From assembly GCA_023663685.1 (NCBI GenBank), contig JAMPHB010000005.1, positions 36,649-78,421 of the forward strand: a DNA stretch of 41,773 bases, written 5' to 3'. Position numbers and translations under genes: made by a program. Position 1 is the stretch's first letter. The number at the start of each line of letters is the position of its first letter. The notes under the pieces are model-generated. The model was given only the letters and a program-made list of their open reading frames with translations. It was not told the DNA's origin and made no database searches. This document shows positions 1,587 through 19,050 of the stretch, one piece after another. The DNA comes from Blautia sp. (GTDB taxonomy: Bacteria; Bacillota; Clostridia; Lachnospirales; Lachnospiraceae).

Positions 1587-2207
1587 GCTCCCTAAGCTTT
1601 CGGATAAGCATAAAATCTGTATTATTTGTGAGGGCAGTGAAGAATATGAATATATCAAGCGGTTGAGGACATTGAAAGTATGGAGTGAGCAGTACGATAT
1701 CTCGCTGGTAAATGCTGGCGGTAATGGTAATATACCATCGAGATATCAGGATCGCTATCAGAATGTGCCTACGAGGTTATACTTGTATTCTGCGATACGG
1801 AAAGGAAGCCTTATGAGCAGTATGAAGATATTAAGCGGAAAATCAATGAATTTCATGGTATAGATAATGCTGCAGATGAAGTAGTAATATTTGGAAATCC
1901 ATGTACGCTGCAGATTATATTGAAGCATTGGACAGATGAAAATTTGAAATCCCCGGCAAAGCAGGTAAATGCTCCATTGATAAAGAAATATACGGACGTG
2001 GAGAATTACAAAGGAAGGGCTGATCAGATAAAAGACGTTATGGAGCATGTCACTAAAGAGAATTATAAGTCTATGTGCCAGAGACTGGCTGCTATGGAGA
2101 CGGACAATTCTGTTACTGGCAGTAGTAATTTTGACAAATTTATTAAGCTGTTTGAGAGTGAAGACAGTGGCTGGATTGATGAGCTTAACCGAAAGTTGGA
2201 GGACTAG
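1576..2207 (+). pseudogene. RloB-like protein, split by a one-base frameshift
   Basis: Translation from 1576 (ribosome site GGGAGGAGGA at 1561-1570) gives an RloB-type N-terminus, with ICIICEGSEEYEYIKRL at about residues 14-30, and runs to a premature TAG at 1861-1863. The homologous continuation (YEVILVFCDTERKPYEQY...) lies in another frame that is open from 1689 to the TAG at 2205-2207. The two parts join naturally near 1760-1770, where adding one base would restore a protein of about 210 residues, close to the usual RloB length. RloB proteins carry a TOPRIM-like fold (the EG...E and F-C-D-T-E elements fit) and pair with RloA-type ATPases. The break may be a true mutation, a sequencing error or, less likely, programmed frameshifting. 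The partner ATPase upstream is intact, so the module is probably inactive if the frameshift is real. Confidence 0.75.
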
Positions 2208-2268
2208 GTGATTTAGGCAGGAGAGGAAATGCCAAAAGTTAAAATTTGATTTCCCTATGCCAAGATTC

Positions 2269-2297
2269 TTTACAATTGCAGGAAAATGAGATACAGT
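2269..2297 (+). promoter_or_regulatory. possible promoter of hisC
   Basis: TTTACA (2269-2274) and TACAGT (2292-2297) are 17 bp apart in the 125-bp gap between the RloB remnant and hisC. The -10 is a weak match. It is listed because hisC differs strongly in base composition from the module before it and probably has its own promoter. Confidence 0.35.
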
Positions 2298-2332
2298 AGT
2301 TAGTGTTTACAGAAGCTATCAGGAGGTAAAGC

Positions 2333-3391
2333 ATGGGCTGGGAAGAAAATGTGCGGCGTGTTGTCCCCTATGTGCCGGGAGAACAGCCGAAGCGGACAGA
2401 TATTATCAAGCTGAATACAAACGAGAATCCTTATCCCCCGGCGCCGGGCGTGGCCGGCGTGCTGCGGGGGCTGGAGGCGGACAGGCTCCGTCTCTACCCG
2501 GATCCAGCCATCGGGGAGCTGGTGGGCGCGATCGCGGAATTTTATGGGGTAGAGGACTCGCAGGTGTTTGTGGGCGTGGGTTCGGACGATGTGCTGGCCA
2601 TGATTTTTATGACCTTTTTTAATGGAGATAAGCCGGTACTTTTTCCCGATATTACTTACTCCTTCTACGATGTGTGGGCGGAGCTGTTCCGTATCCATTA
2701 CGAGCAGCTTCCCCTGGACGGGGAGTTTCGGATTCGCCCCGGGGATTATATGCGGCCGAATGGCGGTGTGATTTTCCCCAATCCCAACGCCCCCACCGGG
2801 GAGGTTTTGCCGCTGGCAGAGATTGAAAAAATCGTGGCAGCAAATCCCGAAGTCATAGTTGTGGCGGACGAAGCGTATATTGATTTTGGGGGAGAGAGCG
2901 CCCTGCCGCTTGTCAACCGCTATGAGAATCTGATCGTGGTTCAGACCTTTTCCAAGTCACGCTCCATGGCGGGCTCGCGGATTGGCTACGCGATAAGCAG
3001 CCCAAAGGTGATCCGGTATCTGAATGCCGTCAAATACTCCTTTAATTCCTACACGATGGACAGCGTGACCATCGCGCTCGGCGTGGAGGCAATCCGTGAC
3101 CGCCGCTATTTTGAGGAGACGGTTGCAAAGGTCGTGGCGACGAGAGAGCGGGCGAAGGAGAGGCTTCGCGCCCTCGGCTTTGTCTGCGGGGATTCCCAGA
3201 GCAATTTCCTCTTTGTGAGACACCCGGACATTTCCGGCGAGGAGCTTTTTGAGGCGCTTAAGCAGGCGGGAATCTATGTGCGGCATTTTAAAAAGCCGGA
3301 GCGGATCCGGGAATATCTGCGCATCTCCATTGGCACGGAGGAGCAGATGGAGAGATTATATGCATTTTTAAAGGAGTATGCGACATGCTGA
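2333..3391 (+). CDS. hisC: Histidinol-phosphate aminotransferase
   Basis: A class II PLP-dependent aminotransferase of 352 residues. It moves the amino group from glutamate to imidazole-acetol phosphate in histidine synthesis and may also act on aromatic amino acids. The N-terminal KLNTNENPYPP motif is typical of HisC. NPNAPTG, VADEAYIDF and the PLP lysine (K208 in TFSKSRSMAGSRIGY) follow in the expected order, and the conserved SNFLFVRH and LRISIGT segments are near the C-terminus. AGGAGG sits 5 bases before the ATG. The gene is outside any his operon here and overlaps the next gene by 7 bp (ATGCTGA), so it is co-transcribed with a small membrane protein. HisC is very likely; the exact substrate range cannot be read from sequence. 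Confidence 0.93.
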   Translation: MGWEENVRRVVPYVPGEQPKRTDIIKLNTNENPYPPAPGVAGVLRGLEADRLRLYPDPAIGELVGAIAEFYGVEDSQVFVGVGSDDVLAMIFMTFFNGDKPVLFPDITYSFYDVWAELFRIHYEQLPLDGEFRIRPGDYMRPNGGVIFPNPNAPTGEVLPLAEIEKIVAANPEVIVVADEAYIDFGGESALPLVNRYENLIVVQTFSKSRSMAGSRIGYAISSPKVIRYLNAVKYSFNSYTMDSVTIALGVEAIRDRRYFEETVAKVVATRERAKERLRALGFVCGDSQSNFLFVRHPDISGEELFEALKQAGIYVRHFKKPERIREYLRISIGTEEQMERLYAFLKEYATC

Positions 3392-8150: not shown

Positions 8151-10043
8151 CTACGCCGTCTTTCCGGTGTAGAGTTGGTAATATTTTCCTCTCTTTTCAA
8201 TGAGCTCGTCATGGCTGCCGCGCTCGATCACGCGGCCCTGCTCAAGGACGATGATACAGTCGCTGTTTTTCACGGTGGAGAGGCGGTGTGCGATCACGAA
8301 TGTGGTGCGCCCCGCCATCAGCTTATCCATGCCGTTTTGCACGATGCGCTCGGTTCTCGTGTCGATGGAGCTGGTCGCCTCGTCGAGAATCAGAACCGGC
8401 GGGTCCGCGATGGCTGCCCGCGCGATGGCGAGAAGCTGCCGCTGTCCCTGGCTTAGATTCGCGCCGTCCCCGGTGAGCACCGTCTGATAGCCGTCCGGGA
8501 GCTGGCGGATAAAGGTGTCGGCGTTGGCGAGACGCGCCGCCGCGTAGACCTCCTCGTCGCTTGCGTCCAGCTTGCCGTAGCGGATATTCTCCATCACCGT
8601 GGCGGTGAACAGATGCGTGTCCTGCAGCACGATGCCCAGCGAGCGGCGCAGGTCTGCTTTCTTAATCTTGTTGATATTGATGCCGTCGTAGCGGATCTTG
8701 CCGTCCTGAATATCGTAAAAGCGGTTGATCAGGTTGGTGATGGTCGTCTTGCCCGCGCCGGTAGAGCCGACAAAGGCGATCTTCTGTCCCGGCGTCGCGT
8801 ACAGATCCACATTGTGGAGCACGATCTTCTCCGGCACATAGCCGAAATCCACATCGTCAAAGACCACATCCCCGGTGAGGCGCACATAATCCACCGAGCC
8901 GTCCGCCTGGTGGGTGTGCTTCCATGCCCACATGCCGGTGCGCCCGCTGCTCTCGGTGAGCACGCCGTTTTCCTCTTTTGCGTTCACCAGGTTCACATAG
9001 CCCTCGTCCGTCTCCACTGTCTCGTCCATCAGCTTAAAGATTCTCTCGCAGCCGGCAAGCGCCATCACGATGCTGTTGAACTGCTGGCTGACCTGGGAGA
9101 TCGGCATATTGAAACTCTTGTTGAAGGTCAGAAAGCTTGCCAGCTTGCCGAGTGTCAGTCCCGCAAAGCCGCCCAGCGCCATGATGCCTCCCACCATCGC
9201 GCATAACACATAGCTTAAGTTTCCAATCTGGGCGTTCACAGGACCCAGACAGCCGGAATAGAAGTTCGCATGGTAGGCACTGTCAAAAAGTTGGTCGTTG
9301 AGCTTCTCGAAGTCCTCGATATTCTTCGCCTCATGGGTGAATACCTTGACGACCTTCTGCCCGCCGAGCATCTCCTCGATAAAGCCGTTGACCTTTCCGA
9401 TATCCCTCTGCTGGGCGAGGAAATAGCGGCCGGAGGAGCCCGTAAAGCGCTTCGTCACCACGATGGTGATGCACACCATCACGAGGGTGAGGACGGTCAG
9501 CGGAATGTTCAGTACAATCATGCAGGCCAGTACGCTCACGACGGTGATAGCGCTCTGAATCAGCTGGGGAATGCTCTGGCTGATGAGCTGCCGCAGCGTG
9601 TCTATGTCGTTGGTGTACACCGACATGATATCCCCGTGGGAGTGGGTGTCAAAATAGCGGATCGGCAGATCCTGCATGTGTGAGAACAGCGCATCCCTGA
9701 GATTCTTGATCGTTCCCTGCGAAACATAGATCATAAGCTTCTGGTAGCCGAAGGCGCTTATGATACCCAGTCCGTAAAAGCATGCCACCCGCGAGATGGC
9801 GGATAACAGCGGCCCGTAATCGGCGGACTGCTGTTTCATCATCGGCAGAATATAGTCGTCGATCAGGGTCTGTGTAAACATCGTCCCCTGAATGTTTGCG
9901 AGCACGCTGACAACGATAAAGACAACGACCGCAATACAGTGGGGCAGATAGTGCTGCAAAATAAATTTCATCAGACGGGCAAAAAGTCTGCCCGGATTCT
10001 TGATCTTGGGTCTTGGCCCCTGGGGTCCTCTTGGTCCTGGCAT
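8151..10043 (-). CDS. ABC exporter half-transporter, canonical ATP-site subunit
   Basis: A 630-residue fused permease/ATPase: six membrane helices in the first ~330 residues, then a nucleotide-binding domain. It has Walker A VGSTGAGKTT, signature LSQGQRQLLAIARA, Walker B with catalytic glutamate LILDEATSSID, and the H-loop IAHRLSTV. All are canonical. The N-terminus is unusually Gly/Pro/Arg-rich (PGPRGPQGPRPK). An insert of about 40 residues lies between the membrane and ATP domains. The start overlaps the upstream subunit's stop by one base (TAATG), so the two are made together. Such heterodimers (the LmrCD, BmrCD, TM287/288 type) export drugs, peptides or lipids; the substrate is not evident. 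Confidence 0.92.
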   Translation of the reverse strand: MPGPRGPQGPRPKIKNPGRLFARLMKFILQHYLPHCIAVVVFIVVSVLANIQGTMFTQTLIDDYILPMMKQQSADYGPLLSAISRVACFYGLGIISAFGYQKLMIYVSQGTIKNLRDALFSHMQDLPIRYFDTHSHGDIMSVYTNDIDTLRQLISQSIPQLIQSAITVVSVLACMIVLNIPLTVLTLVMVCITIVVTKRFTGSSGRYFLAQQRDIGKVNGFIEEMLGGQKVVKVFTHEAKNIEDFEKLNDQLFDSAYHANFYSGCLGPVNAQIGNLSYVLCAMVGGIMALGGFAGLTLGKLASFLTFNKSFNMPISQVSQQFNSIVMALAGCERIFKLMDETVETDEGYVNLVNAKEENGVLTESSGRTGMWAWKHTHQADGSVDYVRLTGDVVFDDVDFGYVPEKIVLHNVDLYATPGQKIAFVGSTGAGKTTITNLINRFYDIQDGKIRYDGININKIKKADLRRSLGIVLQDTHLFTATVMENIRYGKLDASDEEVYAAARLANADTFIRQLPDGYQTVLTGDGANLSQGQRQLLAIARAAIADPPVLILDEATSSIDTRTERIVQNGMDKLMAGRTTFVIAHRLSTVKNSDCIIVLEQGRVIERGSHDELIEKRGKYYQLYTGKTA

Positions 10044-11791
10044 TAGGCTGCACCTCCTTCGTCAAAGTCTCCTCCGCCCTGCGTCTGGGATTCGTAGACG
10101 TCGCGGTAGATTTCATTGCCTGCAAGCAGCTTCTCGTGGGTGTCAAAGCCGCTCACCTTTCCGTCCTCAAGGACAAGAATGCGGTCGGCGTCCTGCACCG
10201 AGGAAATCCGCTGGGCGATGATCAGCTTCGTGGTTCCGGGAATGGATTCCCGGAAAGCTTTCCGGATCTTCGCATCCGTTGCCGTATCCACGGCGCTGGT
10301 GCTGTCGTCCAGGATCAGTACCAGAGGCTTTTTCAAAAGAGCTCTGGCGATACAGAGGCGCTGCTTCTGCCCGCCGGACACGTTCGTGCCTCCCTGCTCT
10401 ATGTAGGTGTTGTAGCCGTCGGGAAAGCCGGAGATAAATTCATCCGCGCAGGCCAGCTCACACGCCCTTTGGCACTCCTCGTCGGTGGCGTCGGGGTCGC
10501 CCCAGCGCAGGTTCTCGTAGATCGTTCCCGAAAAGAGGACATTCTGCTGCAGGACGACGGACACCTGGTTGCGCAGGCTGTCCATATCGTAGTCCCGCAC
10601 GTCGCGCCCGCCCACGGACACCGAGCCGCTGTCCACGTCGTAGAGCCGGCTGATGAGATTCACCAGCGAGGACTTGCTGCTGCCCGTTGCGCCGATGATG
10701 CCGATTGTCTCGCCGGAGGCGATGGAGAGGCTCACGTCGTCCAGCACCGGGGTCTCGGAGGTGCTGGAATAGCGGAAGGTCACATGGGAAAATTCGATGC
10801 TTCCGTCGGCTGCCTTATACACGGGATTCTCAGGGTTGTGCAGCTCGCTCTGCTCGTTTAATACCTCGCTGATACGCCTTGCGCTGGCGATACTCATGGA
10901 AATCATAACAAAGATCATGGAGAGCATCATCAGATTCATAAGGATGTTCATACAGTAGGTGAGTAATGCCATGAGGTCGCCCGTTTCGAGGCTGCCTCCC
11001 ACCACCATGTGGGCGCCGAGCCAGCTGATCAGCAGAATACAGGCATAGACAGTAAACATCATCAGCGGATTGTTTAAAACCACAAGGCTCTCCGCCCTCG
11101 TGAATACCCGGTAGATGTTGGCGCTGGCCGCCCGAAAGCGCTTTTTCTCATGCTCCTCGCGGACATAGGCTTTCACCACCCGGATCGCGGACACGTTTTC
11201 CTGCACGCTCTCGTTGAGTTCATCGTACTTCTCGAAAGCCGTGGAAAAATACTTCATGGCGCGGGTCGCAATAAAGATAAGCGCAGCTCCCAAAAGCAGT
11301 ACCGCCAGAAGATAGATGACCGCGAGCCTCGGGCTTATGAAAAAGGACATCGCCATGGCGCATATAATAGAAGCGGGAGCCCGCATCGCCATGCGCAGCA
11401 TCATCTGGTAGGCGTTCTGGATATTGGTCACGTCGGTGGTGAGCCGCGTCACGAGCCCTGCGGTAGAAAAATGGTCGATATTGGAAAAGGAGTAGGTCTG
11501 GATCTGTCTAAACATGGCGGCACGGAGGTTTTTCCCCAGCCCCATGGAAGCCTTAGCTCCAAATTTTGCCCCCATGCATCCGCAGAACAGCGAAAAGAGC
11601 GCGGCGACGACCATCCATGCGCCCATCACATAGATGTGCGCAGTGTCCCCCGTGTTCACGCCGTCGTCCACGATGGAGGCCATAAGGAGCGGAATGAGCG
11701 TCTCCATGGCCACTTCAAGCAGCATAAAAATCGGTGTGGCGATAGAGGCGCGGGTATATTCCTTTACCTGTGCGCCTAAGGTTTTCAGCAT
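10043..11791 (-). CDS. ABC exporter half-transporter, degenerate ATP-site subunit
   Basis: A 582-residue fused permease/ATPase and the first gene of the minus-strand exporter operon. The ATP domain shows the asymmetry expected of heterodimeric exporters. Walker A is GATGSSKSS, the Walker B catalytic position is Asp rather than Glu (LILDDSTSAVD), and the H-loop histidine is Gln (IAQRISSV). The signature VSGGQKQRLCIARA is intact and would complete the canonical site of the partner. The subunit therefore most likely carries the non-hydrolysing half-site. It starts at 11791 behind AAAGGGGAG. A 28-bp tandem repeat with palindromes lies directly upstream and may be its operator. No regulator gene is next to it. 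Confidence 0.92.
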   Translation of the reverse strand: MLKTLGAQVKEYTRASIATPIFMLLEVAMETLIPLLMASIVDDGVNTGDTAHIYVMGAWMVVAALFSLFCGCMGAKFGAKASMGLGKNLRAAMFRQIQTYSFSNIDHFSTAGLVTRLTTDVTNIQNAYQMMLRMAMRAPASIICAMAMSFFISPRLAVIYLLAVLLLGAALIFIATRAMKYFSTAFEKYDELNESVQENVSAIRVVKAYVREEHEKKRFRAASANIYRVFTRAESLVVLNNPLMMFTVYACILLISWLGAHMVVGGSLETGDLMALLTYCMNILMNLMMLSMIFVMISMSIASARRISEVLNEQSELHNPENPVYKAADGSIEFSHVTFRYSSTSETPVLDDVSLSIASGETIGIIGATGSSKSSLVNLISRLYDVDSGSVSVGGRDVRDYDMDSLRNQVSVVLQQNVLFSGTIYENLRWGDPDATDEECQRACELACADEFISGFPDGYNTYIEQGGTNVSGGQKQRLCIARALLKKPLVLILDDSTSAVDTATDAKIRKAFRESIPGTTKLIIAQRISSVQDADRILVLEDGKVSGFDTHEKLLAGNEIYRDVYESQTQGGGDFDEGGAA

Positions 11792-11812
11792 AATGTATCT
11801 CCCCTTTCTTAT

Positions 11813-11868
11813 TTTTATAATGTTAAAGAAGCATTCTTTTTTTTATAATGTTAAAGAAGCATTCTTTT
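11813..11868. repeat. 28-bp perfect tandem duplication with internal palindrome
   Basis: Two identical 28-bp units lie head to tail at 11813-11840 and 11841-11868, 22 bp upstream of the exporter start. Each unit contains the perfect inverted repeat AAAGAA-GCA-TTCTTT (11825-11839 and 11853-11867) and an AT-rich TATAAT-like part. The position between the exporter start and its likely promoter, plus the palindrome, fit a two-site operator for a MarR- or TetR-type repressor. A role as promoter duplication is also possible. Confidence 0.8.
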
Positions 11869-11942
11869 ATGGTAAAGCAGAAAAAAAATATTGTCAAGGA
11901 AGACACAATTTGTTCACATTTTCCGGTGTGTGAGAAAAACAA

Positions 11943-11995
11943 CCACATAATATGGAAAGTTGATATTGACAAGACCACAATATATAGTGTATGCT
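11943..11995 (+). promoter_or_regulatory. nrdD promoter with NrdR boxes
   Basis: TTGACA (11966-11971) and TATGCT (11990-11995) are 18 bp apart. Between them lies CCACAATATATAGTGT (11975-11990), which matches the published NrdR-box consensus (acaCwAtATaTwGtgt) at 15 of 16 positions. A weaker half-matching site, CCACATAATATGGAAA (11943-11958), lies 32 bp upstream, about three helical turns. This is the usual spacing of paired NrdR boxes. NrdR is the ATP/dATP-sensing repressor of ribonucleotide reductase genes, so the whole nrdD operon, including the sortase and its substrate, should be under dNTP control. Confidence 0.75.
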
Positions 11996-12052
11996 TGTAT
12001 CTAACAACAGATTCCGTCGTGGAGTCTGCAAGTAGGATGAAGGAGATGTGCT

Positions 12053-14239
12053 ATGAAAATCATCAAAAGAAGCGGAAGCGAGGATACGTTTGACGGGACG
12101 AAAATTATTGCGGCGGTAAAGGCCGCGAATGATTCTGTCATTGACTATGAGAAGCTGACGGAGGAGCAGATCCGGGAGATCGCGGACAATGTGGAGGTGG
12201 CGTGTGAGCATATGAAGCGCTCCGCCAGTGTGGAGGAGATACAGGATATGGTGGAGAACCAGCTGATGAACCACCGCGCCTTCACGGTGGCGAGAAATTA
12301 CATCACCTACCGCTACAAGCGCGCGCTGGTGCGCAAGTCCAATTCCACGGACGAGCAGATTCTAAGCCTTCTCGAGTGCAACAACGAGGAGGTCAAGCAG
12401 GAGAACTCCAACAAGAATCCTACGGTGAACAGCGTACAGCGGGATTACATGGCGGGAGAGGTCAGCAAGGATATCACGAAGCGTTTTCTGCTTCCCGAGG
12501 ATGTGGTTGAGGCGCACGAGAAGGGCATGATCCACTTCCACGACGCGGATTATTTCGCCCAGCACATGCACAACTGCTGTCTGGTGAATCTGGAGGACAT
12601 GCTGCAGAACGGGACGGTTATCAGCGAGACGATGATCGACACCCCCAAGAGCTTTTCCACCGCCTGCAATATCGCGACGCAGGCGATCGCCCAGATTGCC
12701 AGCTCCCAGTACGGCGGGCAGAGCATCTCGCTGGCGCACCTTGCCCCCTTTGTGCAGGTCAGCCGTGAGAAATACAGAGAGCAGGTAAAGCGGGAGCTGG
12801 AGCGGGCAGGCCTTCCGGTGGACGAAGAGAAGGTCAATGCGATTGCGGAGATGCGCGTGAAGGAAGAGATCAACAGCGGCGTGCAGACGATACAGTATCA
12901 GGTGATCACCCTGATGACGACCAACGGGCAGGCGCCCTTTGTCACTGTGTTCATGTATCTCGACGAGGTGCCGGAGGGACAGACGAGGGACGATCTTGCG
13001 GCCATTATTGAGGAGATGCTGCACCAGCGGATACAGGGTGTGAAAAATGAGCAGGGCGTCTACATCACCCCGGCCTTCCCGAAGCTCATCTATGTGCTGG
13101 AGGAGGACAATATCCACGAGGGCTCCAGATACTGGGAGCTGACAAAGCTTGCGGCAAGATGCTCCGCGAAGCGTCTCGTGCCGGACTATATTTCCGAGAA
13201 GAAGATGCTGGAGCTCAAGGTGGACAAGAACGGCGAGGGACACTGTTATACCTGCATGGGCTGCCGGAGCTTTCTGACACCCTATGTAGACCCGGAGACG
13301 GGAAAGCCGAAATATTACGGCCGCTTCAATCAGGGTGTGGTGACCATCAATCTGGTGGATGTGGCCTGCTCCTCCGAGAAGGATATGGACAGGTTCTGGA
13401 AGCTTTTGGACGAGCGGCTCTTACTGTGCTACCGTGCGCTGATGTGCCGGCACAAGCGCCTCCTTGGCACACCCTCCGACGTCGCTCCGATTCTGTGGCA
13501 GAATGGCGCGCTGGCGCGTCTGAAAAAGGGAGAGCCCATCGACAGGCTGCTGTTTAACGGCTATTCCACCATCTCCCTGGGCTATGCGGGGCTCTGTGAG
13601 TGCACCCGCTACATGACCGGCGTATCCCACACGGAGCCGGAGAAGGGCACGCCCTTTGCCCTTAAGGTTATGCAGCGTCTCAACGACGCCTGCGCGGAGT
13701 GGAAGGCGAAGGAGCACATTGATTTCAGCCTCTACGGCACGCCCTTAGAGTCCACCACCTACAAATTCGCCAAGTGTCTGCAGAAGCGCTTTGGCATCAT
13801 TGCGGGCGTGACGGACAAGAACTACATCACGAACAGCTACCATGTGCATGTGACAGAGGAGATCAACGCCTTTGACAAGTTAAAGTTCGAGGCACAGTTC
13901 CAGCGTCTGTCGCCGGGAGGCGCCATCAGCTATGTGGAGGTGCCGAACATGCAGGACAATATCGAGGCGGTGCTGTCGGTGATGAAATATATCTACGACA
14001 ATATCATGTACGCCGAGCTCAATACCAAGAGCGATTACTGTATGTCCTGCGGCTACGACGGCGAGATTAAGATCGCAGAGGAAAAGGGCAGCGGCAAGCT
14101 GATCTGGGAATGCCCCAACTGCGGCAATCAGGATCAGAATAAGATGAGCGTCGCCCGGCGCACCTGCGGCTATATCGGCACCCAGTTCTGGAATCAGGGG
14201 CGGACGCAGGAAATCAAGGAGCGCGTTCTGCATCTGTAA
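12053..14239 (+). CDS. nrdD: Anaerobic ribonucleoside-triphosphate reductase, class III
   Basis: A 728-residue class III ribonucleotide reductase that makes dNTPs from NTPs in the absence of oxygen. The N-terminal ~95 residues form an ATP-cone (KRSGSEDTFDGTKI...), the allosteric activity domain. The glycyl-radical loop is RRTCGYIG, with the radical glycine at about 706. Four zinc-binding cysteines are visible as C663-M-S-C666 and C687-P-N-C690. The start at 12053 has GAAGGAG 7 bases upstream. The activating enzyme nrdG is not next to it as usual but 1.86 kb downstream, behind a sortase and a cohesin-like gene. The promoter carries NrdR boxes. Confidence 0.96.
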   Translation: MKIIKRSGSEDTFDGTKIIAAVKAANDSVIDYEKLTEEQIREIADNVEVACEHMKRSASVEEIQDMVENQLMNHRAFTVARNYITYRYKRALVRKSNSTDEQILSLLECNNEEVKQENSNKNPTVNSVQRDYMAGEVSKDITKRFLLPEDVVEAHEKGMIHFHDADYFAQHMHNCCLVNLEDMLQNGTVISETMIDTPKSFSTACNIATQAIAQIASSQYGGQSISLAHLAPFVQVSREKYREQVKRELERAGLPVDEEKVNAIAEMRVKEEINSGVQTIQYQVITLMTTNGQAPFVTVFMYLDEVPEGQTRDDLAAIIEEMLHQRIQGVKNEQGVYITPAFPKLIYVLEEDNIHEGSRYWELTKLAARCSAKRLVPDYISEKKMLELKVDKNGEGHCYTCMGCRSFLTPYVDPETGKPKYYGRFNQGVVTINLVDVACSSEKDMDRFWKLLDERLLLCYRALMCRHKRLLGTPSDVAPILWQNGALARLKKGEPIDRLLFNGYSTISLGYAGLCECTRYMTGVSHTEPEKGTPFALKVMQRLNDACAEWKAKEHIDFSLYGTPLESTTYKFAKCLQKRFGIIAGVTDKNYITNSYHVHVTEEINAFDKLKFEAQFQRLSPGGAISYVEVPNMQDNIEAVLSVMKYIYDNIMYAELNTKSDYCMSCGYDGEIKIAEEKGSGKLIWECPNCGNQDQNKMSVARRTCGYIGTQFWNQGRTQEIKERVLHL

Positions 14240-14254
14240 GGCTGGTAACTGGAA

Positions 14255-15340
14255 ATGGAAAAAAGTAAGCGTAAGCATTATGCCCATTTATACGAGAATG
14301 CGAAAAACACGGGAAATCCTGCCGCTGCGGACGGACGGGAGCCCGGTGCGGGGGACGGACGGGAATATGGCGCAGGGGAGGAATACCTCGGGGATCTGCG
14401 CGTGATAGAGAACCTTTGCGCACACAATGACCTGGGGGATGCGGCGGCCAATAAGCGCCTCTACCGCAGGCTAAAGCAGGAGGGCGGTTTTTCCACATGG
14501 CTCGGGGAGGCATTTTTGTCGGGACTGTTTGTCCACTCGGGAGAAAAACGCCGCAGAAAGACGATTGAGAAGGTATGTAAGCGCATCGCCGTTTCCTTTC
14601 TGGCGATGGCGGTGGTGCTTCTGGCTGTGCTTTTACGCATTCAGATTATGGATGCGAAGGAGAGCGCGGTGCTGGAATATATCCGAAAGGAAAAAGAGCA
14701 GCTCGCGCAGGCGGCGGAGGACAAAAAAGATAATATTGCCATTTCAAAAGAGGTTGAAATTTTAGACCAATATGGTATTATCTATAGTATGTACCCCGAT
14801 GTTGTGGGCTGGCTTACGGTGGAAGGCACCGGCATCGATTATCCGGTGATGCAGGATATCTCAGGGCAGGAATACTATTTAAAGCACAGCTTTGAGGGCA
14901 AGGAGGATTCGAAGGGAAGCCTCTTTATCGACGCGGAGAGCGGGGTGAGCCCGCTGGACAGGAATCTTGTGATATACGGGCACAATGTCAGCGATGGCAG
15001 CCAGTTCGGCAATCTGGATTACTATCTGGATCCGGATTTTTACAAGGCGCATTCGACCTTTACCTTTGACACGATCTATGAGACGGGTGTTTACCAGATT
15101 GTGGCGGTGGTTAAGACCCGTGTGCGGCAGGGCGGTGAGTCGGGCTTCCGGTACTACTGGATGCGGGGCTACCAGAACCGGGGAGAGTTTCAGGAGCTTT
15201 TAGATTTTATCAGTGAGGAAAGTGTCTATGACACGGGAGAGCATCTGTCCTACGGGGACAGTACGGTGATGCTGTCCACCTGCGAGTACACGGTGGACAA
15301 CGGGAGACTTGTGATTATAGCGAAGAGGATGAGTGAGTGA
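14255..15340 (+). CDS. srtB: Class B sortase
   Basis: A 361-residue transpeptidase that would cleave a sorting signal and join the protein to peptidoglycan. An unusually long cytoplasmic N-terminus of about 105 charged residues is followed by one membrane helix (about 108-130). A linker and the extracellular sortase domain come next: PDVVGWLTVEGTGIDYPVMQ is a typical class B entry, with catalytic H243 in VIYGHN, C343 in LSTCEY and R351 in GRLVIIAKR. The gene starts 15 bp after nrdD and its TGA overlaps the ATG of the cohesin-like gene by one base, so that protein is its probable substrate. The long N-terminal extension with a G/D-rich segment is unusual. Confidence 0.92.
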   Translation: MEKSKRKHYAHLYENAKNTGNPAAADGREPGAGDGREYGAGEEYLGDLRVIENLCAHNDLGDAAANKRLYRRLKQEGGFSTWLGEAFLSGLFVHSGEKRRRKTIEKVCKRIAVSFLAMAVVLLAVLLRIQIMDAKESAVLEYIRKEKEQLAQAAEDKKDNIAISKEVEILDQYGIIYSMYPDVVGWLTVEGTGIDYPVMQDISGQEYYLKHSFEGKEDSKGSLFIDAESGVSPLDRNLVIYGHNVSDGSQFGNLDYYLDPDFYKAHSTFTFDTIYETGVYQIVAVVKTRVRQGGESGFRYYWMRGYQNRGEFQELLDFISEESVYDTGEHLSYGDSTVMLSTCEYTVDNGRLVIIAKRMSE

Positions 15341-16095
15341 TGAGGAGACTGAAGAGAAGTATCGTAGCAATCTGTATGGCGTTTGTGTTGTGTTTTGCGT
15401 TTTCGCCTCTTTTGGTGCAGGCGGCCGATATCAATGTGACCCTTGGCACTACGGACAACGGCGTGGAGGGGGATACGGTCACGGCGCGCATTGTGCTGGG
15501 AGAGAATCCGGGCATCTCCACCTTTGCGGTGAAGCTGGCATACGACAATGATTACCTGACCTATACCGGGGCGACATGGGCGAATTCGGTCACGGGAGAT
15601 GCGAACAATGTGCAGCTCATTTCCGAGGTGACAGAGGACGGGGGGCCGGTGCTCAATATCTCCTCGATCTTGAATTCTACCTACTCGAACAACGAGACGA
15701 TTGTGACGCTGAACTTTACGGCGAAGCAGAATTACACCACGATGCCGGTGACACTCACGAATAGGGAGATTACAGACAGCGCCTACAGCCCGGTGACGGT
15801 GAGCCTGCTGGTGGATGCCTCGGCAGGGCAGAGCACTTCGCCAAATACGGAGAATGACAGCAGCCAGGGCAATAACAGCAGTTCAAACAACAGTCAGAAT
15901 AATAATAACAGCAGCAATAATAACAGCAGCTCCAGTAGCAGCAATAACAACAAAAACACCACGGACAAGAAGAATCTGGATAAGACGCCCAAGACAGGAG
16001 TGCTCGATGTAAAGGTTCTGCTTACAGGGGCAATCGTTGTGTTTCTCCTTGCAGCTGCCGTGTGCATACGCCTGCTCGGAAAGAAGCGGAGCTGA
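15340..16095 (+). CDS. Cohesin-like cell-wall protein with TPKTG-type sorting tail
   Basis: A 251-residue exported protein. A signal peptide (basic start, hydrophobic core, cleavage near A28/A29) is followed by a domain of about 120 residues that reads as a cohesin fold (DINVTLGTTDNGVEGDTV, FAVKLAYDNDYLTYTGAT, IVTLNFTAK). Next comes a low-complexity Asn/Ser linker (about 165-205), then the sorting-like motif T216-P-K-T-G220, a hydrophobic segment (about 226-244) and the positively charged end KKRS. The tail has the exact layout of a sortase substrate, with PKTG as in many Clostridia. The gene starts within the stop of the class B sortase. The cohesin domain may bind a dockerin protein or sugar, but no dockerin is seen in the window. 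Confidence 0.85.
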   Translation: MRRLKRSIVAICMAFVLCFAFSPLLVQAADINVTLGTTDNGVEGDTVTARIVLGENPGISTFAVKLAYDNDYLTYTGATWANSVTGDANNVQLISEVTEDGGPVLNISSILNSTYSNNETIVTLNFTAKQNYTTMPVTLTNREITDSAYSPVTVSLLVDASAGQSTSPNTENDSSQGNNSSSNNSQNNNNSSNNNSSSSSSNNNKNTTDKKNLDKTPKTGVLDVKVLLTGAIVVFLLAAAVCIRLLGKKRS

Positions 16096-16616
16096 TGAAT
16101 TACGCGGGAATCAAGTATTGCGATATCGCCAATGGCACGGGCTGCCGCACAGTGCTTTTCGTGTCCGGCTGCCGCAATGCCTGCAGGGGCTGTTTTCAAC
16201 CGCACACATGGGATTTTGGCTATGGAGAGCCCTTTGACGATAAGGTGCAGGAGGAGGTGATCGCCTCCCTGCAGCCGGAGTATGTGCAGGGGTTTACCCT
16301 GCTGGGAGGAGAGCCCTTTGAGGAGGAGAACCAGAGAGCGCTGCTTCCCTTTATGCGTCTTGTGAAGGCGCGCTGTCCCCACAAGGACGTATGGGCGTTC
16401 ACGGGCTATATCTACGACAGAGATCTCGTGGCGGGGGGCAGAAAGCACACGGAGGATACCGACGCACTTTTATCAATGATTGATATTTTGGTGGACGGCC
16501 CTTTTGTGGAGGAGGAGAAGGATATCACGCTGAAATTCCGTGGTTCGAAAAATCAGCGGATTATAGACTTGCAAAAAACGATAGAATGTGGCAAAATATG
16601 CCTTGCAATGAACTGA
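16095..16616 (+). CDS. nrdG: Anaerobic ribonucleotide reductase activating protein
   Basis: A 173-residue radical-SAM activase that installs the glycyl radical on NrdD using a [4Fe-4S] cluster and S-adenosylmethionine. The cluster motif C26-x3-C30-x2-C33 (SGCRNACRGCFQPHTWDF) and the LLGGEPF segment are clear, and the length is normal for NrdG. The ATG lies inside the TGA of the cohesin-like gene (TGATG), with GCGGAG just upstream. It therefore depends on translation of the surface-protein gene. This is an unusual arrangement, because nrdG normally follows nrdD directly. Confidence 0.95.
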   Translation: MNYAGIKYCDIANGTGCRTVLFVSGCRNACRGCFQPHTWDFGYGEPFDDKVQEEVIASLQPEYVQGFTLLGGEPFEEENQRALLPFMRLVKARCPHKDVWAFTGYIYDRDLVAGGRKHTEDTDALLSMIDILVDGPFVEEEKDITLKFRGSKNQRIIDLQKTIECGKICLAMN

Positions 16617-16639
16617 CTGGTCACAAAGGAGTGTGCTAT

Positions 16640-16948
16640 ATGAAAAAGCATATCAACATGGCTCTCGGCTTTATATGCTACGCACTTGGCGTTCTCACGG
16701 CTTTGTATGTGGGACTCTGGAAGATGGTATGCCTGCCAATACAGGCCTTGTATGTGGCTTTCATAGGGGGGGAGATTACACTGTCTCTGATCATTGCCTG
16801 CGGGGTGAAGATTCTCTTTTCCACGACGCTGATGGGGCTGATCTGGTGTATCGGCTATATTGGTTATAACCATTTCAAGGGGACGGAGGATCCGGACTGG
16901 GACGCCATAGAGAAGAAGAGGAGCTGCCGTGATTCTGAGAGTGCCTGA
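16640..16948 (+). CDS. Small membrane protein of unknown function
   Basis: A 102-residue protein with two or three hydrophobic helices (about 6-25, 30-58 and 62-80) and a charged C-terminal tail containing DPDWDAIEKKR. I do not recognise a family. AAAGGAG precedes the ATG at 16640; the frame is open further upstream, but those starts lie inside nrdG. Its end overlaps the next gene by 20 bp, so the two are co-translated. The gene sits 23 bp after nrdG and is probably read through from the same operon. Confidence 0.7.
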   Translation: MKKHINMALGFICYALGVLTALYVGLWKMVCLPIQALYVAFIGGEITLSLIIACGVKILFSTTLMGLIWCIGYIGYNHFKGTEDPDWDAIEKKRSCRDSESA

Positions 16949-18077
16949 TTATTACGAAGAATTTGCCTGCATTGCAGACCGTTGTAAGGGGAGCTGCTGC
17001 GCGGGGTGGGAGATTGACATTGACGAGCCCACGAGAGACTATTATTGCACTGTTCCCGGTGAAATCGGGGAGCGGATGCGGGAAAAATTATACAGGGGAG
17101 AGGACGGCGGTTACCGTTTCCGGCTATCGGAGGACGGGCGTTGTCCTTTTTTAAACTCCGGCAATCTCTGCGATATCATTACTGCTCTGGGGCAGGAGGC
17201 ATTGAGCGAGGTCTGCACGGATTTTCCGCGCTTCTCCCTCTCCTACGGGCATGTGATGCAGCGGGTGCTCTCGATCTCCTGCGAGGAGGTCGGGCGGATT
17301 CTGTTTTCGAAGCGGGAGCCGGTCTCTTTTGTGGAGCACCGCATGGAATGCATGGCGGACTGGGAGGAGGAGGCCGACGAGGAATACATCGCCTTTTTGG
17401 AAGGACTGCAGAGCTGTGCGATTCGCCTGCTGCAGGAGCGGACGCACGCCCTTTCGGAGCGCGTGCAGGACTTTCTCTTTCTCTGTGAGTGGGGACAGTC
17501 CGTGATCAACCGGCGCGGGGGAGAGGAAGCGTCAGATGGGGGCGGGGCTTTTCCGGATCCTTTTGCGGACTGGAGTGCGGAGTCCGGCACAGAGAAGCTC
17601 TGTCCCGGGGACAGAAAATGGGTGTTGGAGTGGTGCGCCGGGGGAGACGACGGAGAGCTGTATGAGGCCTTCGATATCCGTTTTGGCATTCTGGAGGGAC
17701 TGGAGGAGCTGGGGCTGGAGTGGGTGCAGGCCAAGAGACAGGTCAGGGAGGTGCTGACGGCGGACAGCTACGCCCGGCTGCGGAGGGAATATATGGCTTC
17801 GGACTCCTTCGATGCGACAGCCTATGAGCAGCTGCTGGTATATTTTACCTTCCGCTATTTCATGCAGGCATACTACAGCTACGATCTGCTGGCCTACGGC
17901 CGGATGGTGGTGGGATTTACACTGATGATACGGGATCTGGATATATGCCGGTGGAGCATGAATGGAAAAAGACTCGGGCCGGACGACCGGATCGACACAG
18001 CCCATGTCTTTTCCAGAGAGGTGGAACATTCCGAAGAGAATTTCGAACAGGTGCAGGAGGAATTCCTGTTCCTGTGA
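16929..18077 (+). CDS. FliB-like (flagellin lysine-N-methylase family) protein
   Basis: A 382-residue protein starting at GTG 16929 behind AGGAG. The Cys-rich N-terminus resembles the FliB family: CIADRCKGSCCAGW near residues 14-27, then CPFLNSGNLC and CTDFPRFS. The clustered cysteines suggest an iron-sulfur centre. FliB methylates lysines of flagellin in Salmonella. In Clostridia the same annotation is widespread and the target is often unknown. No flagellar gene is present in this window, so methylation of another protein is possible. The C-terminal two thirds are rich in aromatic and acidic residues and show no other motif that I recognise. It converges on the aldolase gene with a one-base gap. 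Confidence 0.65.
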   Translation: MILRVPDYYEEFACIADRCKGSCCAGWEIDIDEPTRDYYCTVPGEIGERMREKLYRGEDGGYRFRLSEDGRCPFLNSGNLCDIITALGQEALSEVCTDFPRFSLSYGHVMQRVLSISCEEVGRILFSKREPVSFVEHRMECMADWEEEADEEYIAFLEGLQSCAIRLLQERTHALSERVQDFLFLCEWGQSVINRRGGEEASDGGGAFPDPFADWSAESGTEKLCPGDRKWVLEWCAGGDDGELYEAFDIRFGILEGLEELGLEWVQAKRQVREVLTADSYARLRREYMASDSFDATAYEQLLVYFTFRYFMQAYYSYDLLAYGRMVVGFTLMIRDLDICRWSMNGKRLGPDDRIDTAHVFSREVEHSEENFEQVQEEFLFL

Positions 18078-18078
18078 A

Positions 18079-19050
18079 TTATTTATCCAGCAAATCGGTG
18101 TAGAACGCAGCGTAGTCGGTGCGGTTCTCTTTGGTGTAGTCGATGGCCGCAGAGGGGTGCTGGTTTAAGTGTCCGGTCAGAAGGTAGGGGATATCGTAGC
18201 CCCAGACCGCGCCGGAATCCCGCAGGGGAAGCATATGCTCCTCGATGAACTTGAGCACCGGGAAGATATTGTACTTCGGATTCTTTAAGAAGCTCAAGAG
18301 CAGCTCCATCGCACAGTTGCCCGCGCCGCGCCCCATGGACATCATGGTGGCGTCAAGGAGGCTTGCCCCGTGGGTCATGGCCTCGATGGTGTTCGCGAAG
18401 GCGAGCTGCTGGTTGTTGTGGGCGTGGATGCCTAAGTATTTGCCGTATTTTTCAGCGGTCTCCATATACAGGCCGGTGATGCGCTCAATCTGCTCCGGGA
18501 ACAGGGCGCCGTAGCTGTCGACGATATAAATGCCGTCTACGCTGCTCTCGCCCACCATCTGCAGAGCCTGCGCCACGTCTCCCTCCTGCGCGTTGGAGAT
18601 GGCCATAATGTTGCAGGTGACCTCGTATCCCTTCTCCTTGGCGTCCTCAATCATCGCAATCGCGCCGGGCATCTGGTGTACATAGGTCGCCACCCGCACC
18701 ATGTCGATGACGCTGTCCTTCTTGTCGATGATATCCCGCTTAAAATCGCAGCGTCCCACGTCCGCCATGACGGAAATCTTCATATCGGAATTGTTCTCGC
18801 CCACGATCTCGCGGATGGACTCCTCGTCACAGAATTTCCATTTGCCAAATTTATTCACATCAAAGAGCTCTTTGGAGGCCTTGTAGCCGAATTCCATGAC
18901 GTCAACCCCCGCCTTTACGTTCGCACGGTAGAGCGCGTTGATAAAATCGTCGGTGAACGCAAAATTGTTCACCAGTCCTCCGTCGCGTATGGTTGCGTCC
19001 AGCACACGCACGTCGGTGCGGACGGTCATTAAATTGCCCTTTTGAGCCAT
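18079..19050 (-). CDS. DRE-TIM metallolyase, HMGL-like aldolase
   Basis: A 323-residue TIM-barrel protein of the HMG-CoA lyase / 4-hydroxy-2-oxovalerate aldolase / isopropylmalate synthase superfamily. The metal-binding opening VLDATIRDGGLVNN holds the D-x-x-x-R-D-G signature, and the two metal histidines appear in LGIHAHNNQQLAFAN, followed by a G-rich MSMGRGAGN. The start at 19050 uses AAGGAGG; an ATG at 19071 overlaps that site and was rejected. Without neighbours from a known pathway the substrate is open. It resembles the 'aldolase catalytic domain-containing' proteins common in Lachnospiraceae and lacks the regulatory domain of isopropylmalate or citramalate synthases. Confidence 0.8.
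   Translation of the reverse strand: MAQKGNLMTVRTDVRVLDATIRDGGLVNNFAFTDDFINALYRANVKAGVDVMEFGYKASKELFDVNKFGKWKFCDEESIREIVGENNSDMKISVMADVGRCDFKRDIIDKKDSVIDMVRVATYVHQMPGAIAMIEDAKEKGYEVTCNIMAISNAQEGDVAQALQMVGESSVDGIYIVDSYGALFPEQIERITGLYMETAEKYGKYLGIHAHNNQQLAFANTIEAMTHGASLLDATMMSMGRGAGNCAMELLLSFLKNPKYNIFPVLKFIEEHMLPLRDSGAVWGYDIPYLLTGHLNQHPSAAIDYTKENRTDYAAFYTDLLDK

Follow-up and report, generated by a model that had tools for sequence, protein, structure and literature searches.

Between the anaerobic ribonucleotide reductase gene nrdD and the activase gene nrdG of a Blautia sp. (contig JAMPHB010000005.1) lie two genes for surface proteins, encoding a sortase and a secreted cohesin protein. All feature coordinates given here are positions within the whole 41,773-nucleotide stretch of this contig that was analysed, which we call the window. 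With moderate confidence we propose that the two genes belong to a small kit for docking at the cell surface, housed in the operon for anaerobic ribonucleotide reduction: an anchoring and an adaptor scaffoldin with a sortase of their own. The class B-type sortase would cut the co-encoded cohesin protein at TPKTG and link it to peptidoglycan, one cohesin module would be displayed on the cell surface via a flexible Asn/Ser linker, and a secreted two-cohesin protein would dock on this wall cohesin by its C-terminal type I dockerin. One clade of the genus would have acquired the kit, probably in a single event, with several later losses or with movement among members; the kit would have taken over the nrdD promoter, so that it would be co-transcribed with nrdD and expressed along with anaerobic synthesis of deoxyribonucleoside triphosphates (dNTPs). 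The proposal rests on gene order, domains, the predicted cohesin fold, recurrence of the arrangement, co-occurrence with the putative partner and purifying selection.

Gene order and the predicted wall-anchored cohesin protein

The four genes lie on the + strand in the order nrdD, sortase (srtB), cohesin protein (coh) and nrdG, as a first-pass annotation made from the sequence alone had described. The gap between nrdD and srtB is 15 bases, and both overlaps reported in that annotation, the 1-base TGATG junctions srtB/coh and coh/nrdG (-1 and -1), are present in the sequence.

12053..14239, + strand: nrdD, class III ribonucleotide reductase (NF006732, 959.8 bits)
14255..15340, + strand: srtB, class B-type sortase (TIGR03064, 145.5 bits; Pfam Sortase, 38.9 bits)
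15340..16095, + strand: coh, predicted wall-anchored cohesin protein with signal peptide, one cohesin module, Asn/Ser linker, TPKTG, membrane segment and basic tail (profile, model and inspection by eye)
15430-15807, + strand: cohesin module of coh (PF00963, six-frame match)
15985..15999, + strand: TPKTG sorting motif of coh (sequence and alignment)
16095..16616, + strand: nrdG, activase of NrdD (TIGR02491, 170 bits)

The cohesin module was matched by PF00963 in a six-frame search of the genome at 30.1 bits (cut-off 24.1); it was not listed when the whole coh protein was scanned against Pfam with hmmscan at expectation values (E) up to 10. An AlphaFold model of the module, built from 11 orthologs, reached a predicted local distance difference test score (pLDDT) of 92.5 and contains nine strands of at least three residues. 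In a Foldseek search of the PDB all 50 rows listed were cohesins or cohesin-containing structures, with E down to 4e-7 and template-modelling scores (TM-scores) of 0.53-0.73 on the query, the top matches being structures from Clostridium acetobutylicum and C. cellulolyticum. The profile score over the cut-off, the model and the structural matches together rule out that the cohesin is a misreading.

At its C-terminus the protein carries TPKTG followed by a hydrophobic stretch and a KKR-type basic tail, and its signal peptide was judged by eye. Of the 11 genomes that carry the srtB-coh pair, 10, the window's among them, have TPKTG; G168 has TFKTG instead. Attachment of the protein to the wall is predicted from these signals. 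The profiles and the sorting signal thus bear out the original assignment of the two genes as a class B sortase and a cohesin-like secreted substrate ending in TPKTG, with the qualification that the sortase is better called class B-type, as its TIGR03064 score stays under the cut-off.

Recurrence, selection and the nrdD promoter

The genome that contains the window, assembled into 31 contigs totalling 2.3 Mb and 82% complete, was compared with others in a genus sample of 60 genomes. The srtB-coh pair occurs in 11 of the 60 (G000, G100, G104, G108, G109, G124, G126, G132, G160, G168 and G178), Roseburia faecis M72 among them, and stands beside nrdG in every carrier, in G132 via two separate contigs. 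In a table of nrdG loci from 55 genomes, the order nrdD, a dockerin gene or none, srtB, coh, nrdG was found at eight loci including the window, with nrdD cut by the contig end in G100 and G108. The contig of G104 starts just before the dockerin gene and is therefore cut before nrdD; in G132 two contigs share the stretch, and the more than 5 kb that precede its dockerin gene showed no nrdD; and in G178 the order is nrdD-nrdG-srtB-coh, with the pair after nrdG. The expectation that the four-gene order recurs was therefore borne out, and an order unique to one assembly is ruled out. The SrtB protein search covered 36 of the 60 genomes; for the remaining 24, carriage was assessed from the available nrdG stretches and from further scans. 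G132 appears in the table as lacking the pair, because the contig with its nrdG begins within coh, and is counted as a carrier from the other contig; G173, whose NrdG is over the cut-off, lies outside the table, and G120, G123, G180 and G182 have no NrdG over the cut-off.

Beyond the genus, a scan of 84,980 species, one genome per species, with two peptide patterns returned 443 stretches, of which 368 are sortase relatives; among the best 80 of the 443 only the top 10 match the cohesin profile, and all 10 are known carriers. At the nrdG loci of 81 genomes from other genera of the family no match was found to the 11-ortholog sortase profile or to the cohesin profile, a search that could miss a sortase of another class; it covered 90 loci, 30 of them with ~1.5 kb on each side (five extended later) and some others cut by contig ends, and G013, G030, G065 and G081 of the family sample, over the NrdG cut-off, lie outside this set. 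Over the loci covered, this absence rules out that the pair is a general habit of Lachnospiraceae. In G116 (L216) a distant sortase (27% identity), a protein ending in SPKTN and a large secreted protein lie upstream of nrdG, and we estimate that the position of this sortase is due to chance. In the stretch of G138, a locus chosen for its sortase, which lies ~2 kb after nrdG behind a long open reading frame (ORF), the cohesin gave no BLAST match. Among the titles and abstract openings surveyed, none describes a sortase-cohesin pair at nrdD-nrdG; the parts are known, the address is unusual and no enzyme cargo was found.

The ratios of nonsynonymous to synonymous substitution (dN/dS) between the window and G160 are 0.019 for nrdD, 0.063 for srtB, 0.027 for coh (first 160 codons) and 0.166 for nrdG. 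The low values of srtB and coh indicate that both genes are under purifying selection and rule out a decaying insertion. In a tree of 23 NrdD sequences, eight carriers fall in one well-supported clade of 14 rows together with six non-carriers, a mixture that points to either one gain with losses or some transfer; a single gain is the probable number. On a tree of 55 NrdG sequences the distribution of the pair needs seven changes, partly because G178 and G161 share a divergent lineage of nrdG, for which reason the NrdG tree was dropped as a proxy for the species tree. The nrdG of G178 (L217, 505-5164), which stands before srtB-coh, is only 51% identical to that of the window, and its nrdD is 89% identical. 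It seems that in this genome the old nrdG was lost behind the pair and another nrdG came to lie beside nrdD, the pair being left in place.

Upstream of nrdD the following candidate regulatory sites were read.

11943..11958, + strand: possible degenerate upstream NrdR-like box, read in the sequence (under 10 of 16 matches; its start lies 32 bases before that of the good box, leaving a 16-base spacer)
11966..11995, + strand: promoter-like TTGACA-18-TATGCT (promoter-pattern scan)
11975..11990, + strand: NrdR-like box CCACAATATATAGTGT (15 of 16 matches to the NrdR-box consensus)

The good box sits within the TTGACA-18-TATGCT promoter and is the only site of 15/16 quality in the 41.8 kb window, which holds seven sites at 12/16 or better. 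A promoter with an NrdR-like box in front of nrdD, as first annotated, is thus found. The promoter pattern is weak on its own, seven promoter-like sites being present in the region against 4.4 +/- 2.5 expected from shuffles. In G109 the site 32 bases before the good box scores 12/16; boxes with a spacer of 15-16 bases are reported to be the common type for NrdR (PMC12051234), and the 16-base spacer in the window fits this. As in NrdR-controlled nrdDG operons, a promoter with an NrdR-like box stands before nrdD as the first gene; unlike them, the present operon has two surface genes between nrdD and nrdG, and its upstream box is degenerate. A box of at least 12/16 occurs within 350 bases at 27 of 27 scanned loci whose nrdD start is at least 75% identical to that of the window, with or without the pair. 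As relatives without the pair also have boxes before nrdD, the operator belongs to nrdD and the pair came under it. By their spacing the genes would form one transcription unit, which would place the pair under NrdR control.

The suggestion that surface display is thereby linked to the control of dNTPs is only partly supported, and a functional tie to DNA synthesis goes beyond the evidence: the NrdR-like boxes precede nrdD without the pair as well, and G132 has neither an upstream nrdD nor an NrdR-like box within 400 bases of the first gene of its kit. Another explanation, to which we give about an even chance, starts from these same observations and sees in srtB-coh a neutral passenger, inserted between nrdD and nrdG and kept because its excision would harm expression of nrdG, the position being meaningless for regulation. 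The patchy occurrence of the pair within one clade and its place after nrdG in G178 agree with this, and so does the loose linkage of the two host genes. They had been assumed to be normally adjacent, which does not hold in the genus, where nrdD lies 300 bases or less upstream of nrdG in only 24 of 55 loci (23 without the pair, and G178); at the other loci nrdD is farther away, on the opposite strand or outside the stretch examined. Strong purifying selection on srtB and coh and the presence of the pair beside nrdG in all 11 carriers speak against a mere passenger. As this explanation touches regulation and not surface function, it can be compatible with the docking kit that we propose.

At the level of translation, the coh/nrdG overlap is kept in eight of the 10 carriers that have coh before nrdG and absent in the other two, and a GGAG-like ribosome site stands just before the nrdG start. 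The overlap fits translational coupling; since nrdG has a ribosome site of its own, however, its dependence on translation of the surface protein, which had been claimed, is not supported.

The two-cohesin dockerin protein and other dockerins

A candidate partner that the first-pass annotation had not seen is a dockerin-bearing adaptor. Directly 5' of srtB in G109, G168, G132 and G104 lies a gene for a secreted protein of 389-530 residues with two terminal dockerin repeats, and the genome of the window encodes a 402-residue relative on contig C11, beside ilvN, a copy that is kept at ilvN in six carriers. Dockerin_1 (PF00404) matches the latter at 57.6 bits in the six-frame search and at 56.2 bits with hmmscan (cut-off 22.9), two calcium-binding dockerin repeats are visible in 12 of 12 aligned proteins, and PF00963 matches as well, at 28.3 bits. 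On our reading, the protein as modelled has two cohesin-like modules and, at its C-terminus, a type I dockerin. Some match to it was found in 26 of the 60 genomes, often to the dockerin alone; when only full-length matches are counted, it is present in nine of the 11 carriers and was found in none of the 49 others (Fisher p 3.7e-9, ignoring kinship). With a profile of the family, which was built from the same nine carriers' proteins and run on loci L230-L278 only, the nine copies scored 377-439 bits along almost their entire length, against 62 bits for the highest-scoring other protein. This 62-bit protein, from the non-carrier G182, contains at least two cohesin-like modules, and a cohesin-dockerin protein of a different type comes after it. 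A 280-residue dockerin frame in G106 was rejected as an exception to this pattern, being by eye a cut-off protein of the cadherin-like/dockerin type. In G168, contig C91 (L235/L264) holds two further two-cohesin dockerin proteins in tandem, making three in that genome. The co-occurrence suggests that the dockerin of the adaptor binds the wall cohesin.

Several observations weigh against the proposed kit. In the window's own genome the adaptor gene is unlinked to srtB-coh, and two carriers, G100 (73% complete) and G124 (75% complete), showed no adaptor. The adaptor model is the weaker one (pLDDT 77; predicted template-modelling score, pTM, 0.55), and although its Foldseek search is headed by 3l8q, the dyad of cohesins from the adaptor scaffoldin ScaA, the TM-score to that entry is only 0.22-0.24 on the query, taken over the whole chain; for single cohesins the TM-score on the target reaches 0.76, and integrins are among the matches. 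As to regulation, the NrdR gene is present in 10 of the 10 other carriers but went undetected in the 82% complete assembly to which the window belongs. A separate promoter in front of srtB or nrdG, on whose absence the original notion of one jointly controlled set depended, is conceivable, as a promoter-like site inside srtB (14754-14781) is common to four of nine relatives tested, the window included. Of the 49 genomes without the pair, 14 likewise have cohesin matches over the cut-off. The two genes of G182 (L276), one of these genomes lacking the pair, encode at least two cohesin-like modules (1-1923, + strand) and a cohesin-like module with a dockerin (1985-3303, + strand). Other cohesin-dockerin pairings are therefore possible, and the genus has pairs of more than one kind.

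It is conceivable, albeit unlikely, that the anchored cohesin binds a different dockerin, either that of a cadherin-like/dockerin protein on contig C25 or those of neighbouring species. The genome of the window has two dockerin ORFs over the cut-off, the adaptor and this C25 protein, and a dockerin match was found in 48 of the 60 genomes. However, dockerin matches in longer frames are found whether or not a genome carries the pair (their domains were scanned in G000 and, by eye, in G106 only), whereas the two-cohesin dockerin protein tracks the srtB-coh pair and is its direct neighbour in four genomes. In four genomes lacking the pair, G134, G176, G119 and G120, such a dockerin has a cohesin match no more than 0.5 kb away, which looks like the dockerin's own partner. 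On C25 (L226) the gene for the cadherin-like and dockerin protein (1-1701, + strand) stands before one for a secreted protein (1729-3165, + strand) that has a cadherin-like domain and, by eye, a cohesin-like N-terminus, and these genes are perhaps a second cohesin-dockerin pair of the genus.

No glycoside hydrolase match was found in either dockerin ORF of the 82% complete genome (Pfam, E 0.001; the scan of the C25 protein began a few residues after its start). Dockerin-bearing carbohydrate-active enzymes, by which a cellulosome or amylosome is recognised, are thus not seen in this incomplete genome. One could picture an enzyme-free cohesin-dockerin fibre, in which the dockerin of the adaptor would bind the wall cohesin as well as the cohesins of further adaptors, chains would grow from sortase-anchored stubs, the tip cohesins would hold cells together or catch the dockerin-bearing enzymes of neighbours, and NrdR would set the dose, the stub being translated between NrdD and NrdG; we consider this extension improbable. 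Should the docking kit be real, it would be an example of cohesins and dockerins assembling at the cell surface with no enzyme cargo, in the clade to which the gut species Roseburia faecis belongs and inside an operon controlled by the dNTP level. Roseburia faecis M72 would then make the role of non-cellulosomal cohesins directly testable, as well as the question of whether the amount of a wall protein can be set by a promoter that drives genes for DNA precursors.

The sortase and known docking systems

TIGR03064, the class B family, is the best NCBIfam match of the sortase at 145.5 bits, just below its cut-off of 153.75, and the Pfam Sortase match is over its cut-off of 26.6. Residues H243, C343 and R351, which we take to be the catalytic His, Cys and Arg, are invariant in the alignment of all 11 carriers, and a hydrophobic membrane segment was placed by eye at residues ~112-131. 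A region of ~100 residues precedes this segment (window 14255-14570); 10 of the 11 carriers keep it, G168 has it truncated at the start, and Roseburia faecis M72 lacks most of it. The class B SrtB of Clostridioides difficile is reported to cleave (S/P)PXTG peptides including SPKTG and PPKTG (PMC4155245). The present sortase resembles it in class, and TPKTG is close to these targets as described there (PMC4155245); it differs in having one co-encoded substrate and in the ~100-residue N-terminal region of 10 of 11 carriers. By analogy, TPKTG fits the (S/P)PXTG class, and the sortase would cleave it.

That srtB mainly serves other substrates, with the cohesin protein anchored by another sortase of the cell, has little to commend it, for despite four sortase matches in the genome, one of them on C11 adjoining a protein with a terminal SPKTG signal, srtB and coh are neighbours in 11 of 11 carriers, overlapping or no more than 24 bases apart, and TPKTG is retained in all of these but one.

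The proposed kit has two close parallels. ScaE of Ruminococcus flavefaciens is described as a wall-anchored single cohesin that receives dockerin-bearing scaffoldins (PMC5301203, PMC3573020), and coh likewise encodes a single cohesin predicted to be fixed to the wall by a sortase. Unlike ScaE, the coh gene overlaps its sortase gene inside nrdD-nrdG, and its favoured partner is a two-cohesin adaptor; no dockerin protein with a glycoside hydrolase match was found in the 82% complete genome. The R. flavefaciens sca cluster reportedly contains a sortase gene too. The mucinolysome of Limousia includes cSca5 with LPxTG as well as cSca1 and cSca2 with cohesins and a C-terminal dockerin (PMC12997984). 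The combination of a wall-anchored cohesin with cohesin-dockerin adaptors is shared with the kit as proposed here (PMC12997984), whereas Limousia has dockerin-bearing glycoside hydrolases, none of which were found in the genome of the window.

Around the operon, no Rfam element reached the gathering score in window 10000-19000. The second ORF after nrdG (16932-18074) is a flagellin lysine-N-methylase FliB according to NCBIfam (230.5 bits), and FliB-like ORFs, judged by eye, lie 3' of nrdG in many loci of the genus.

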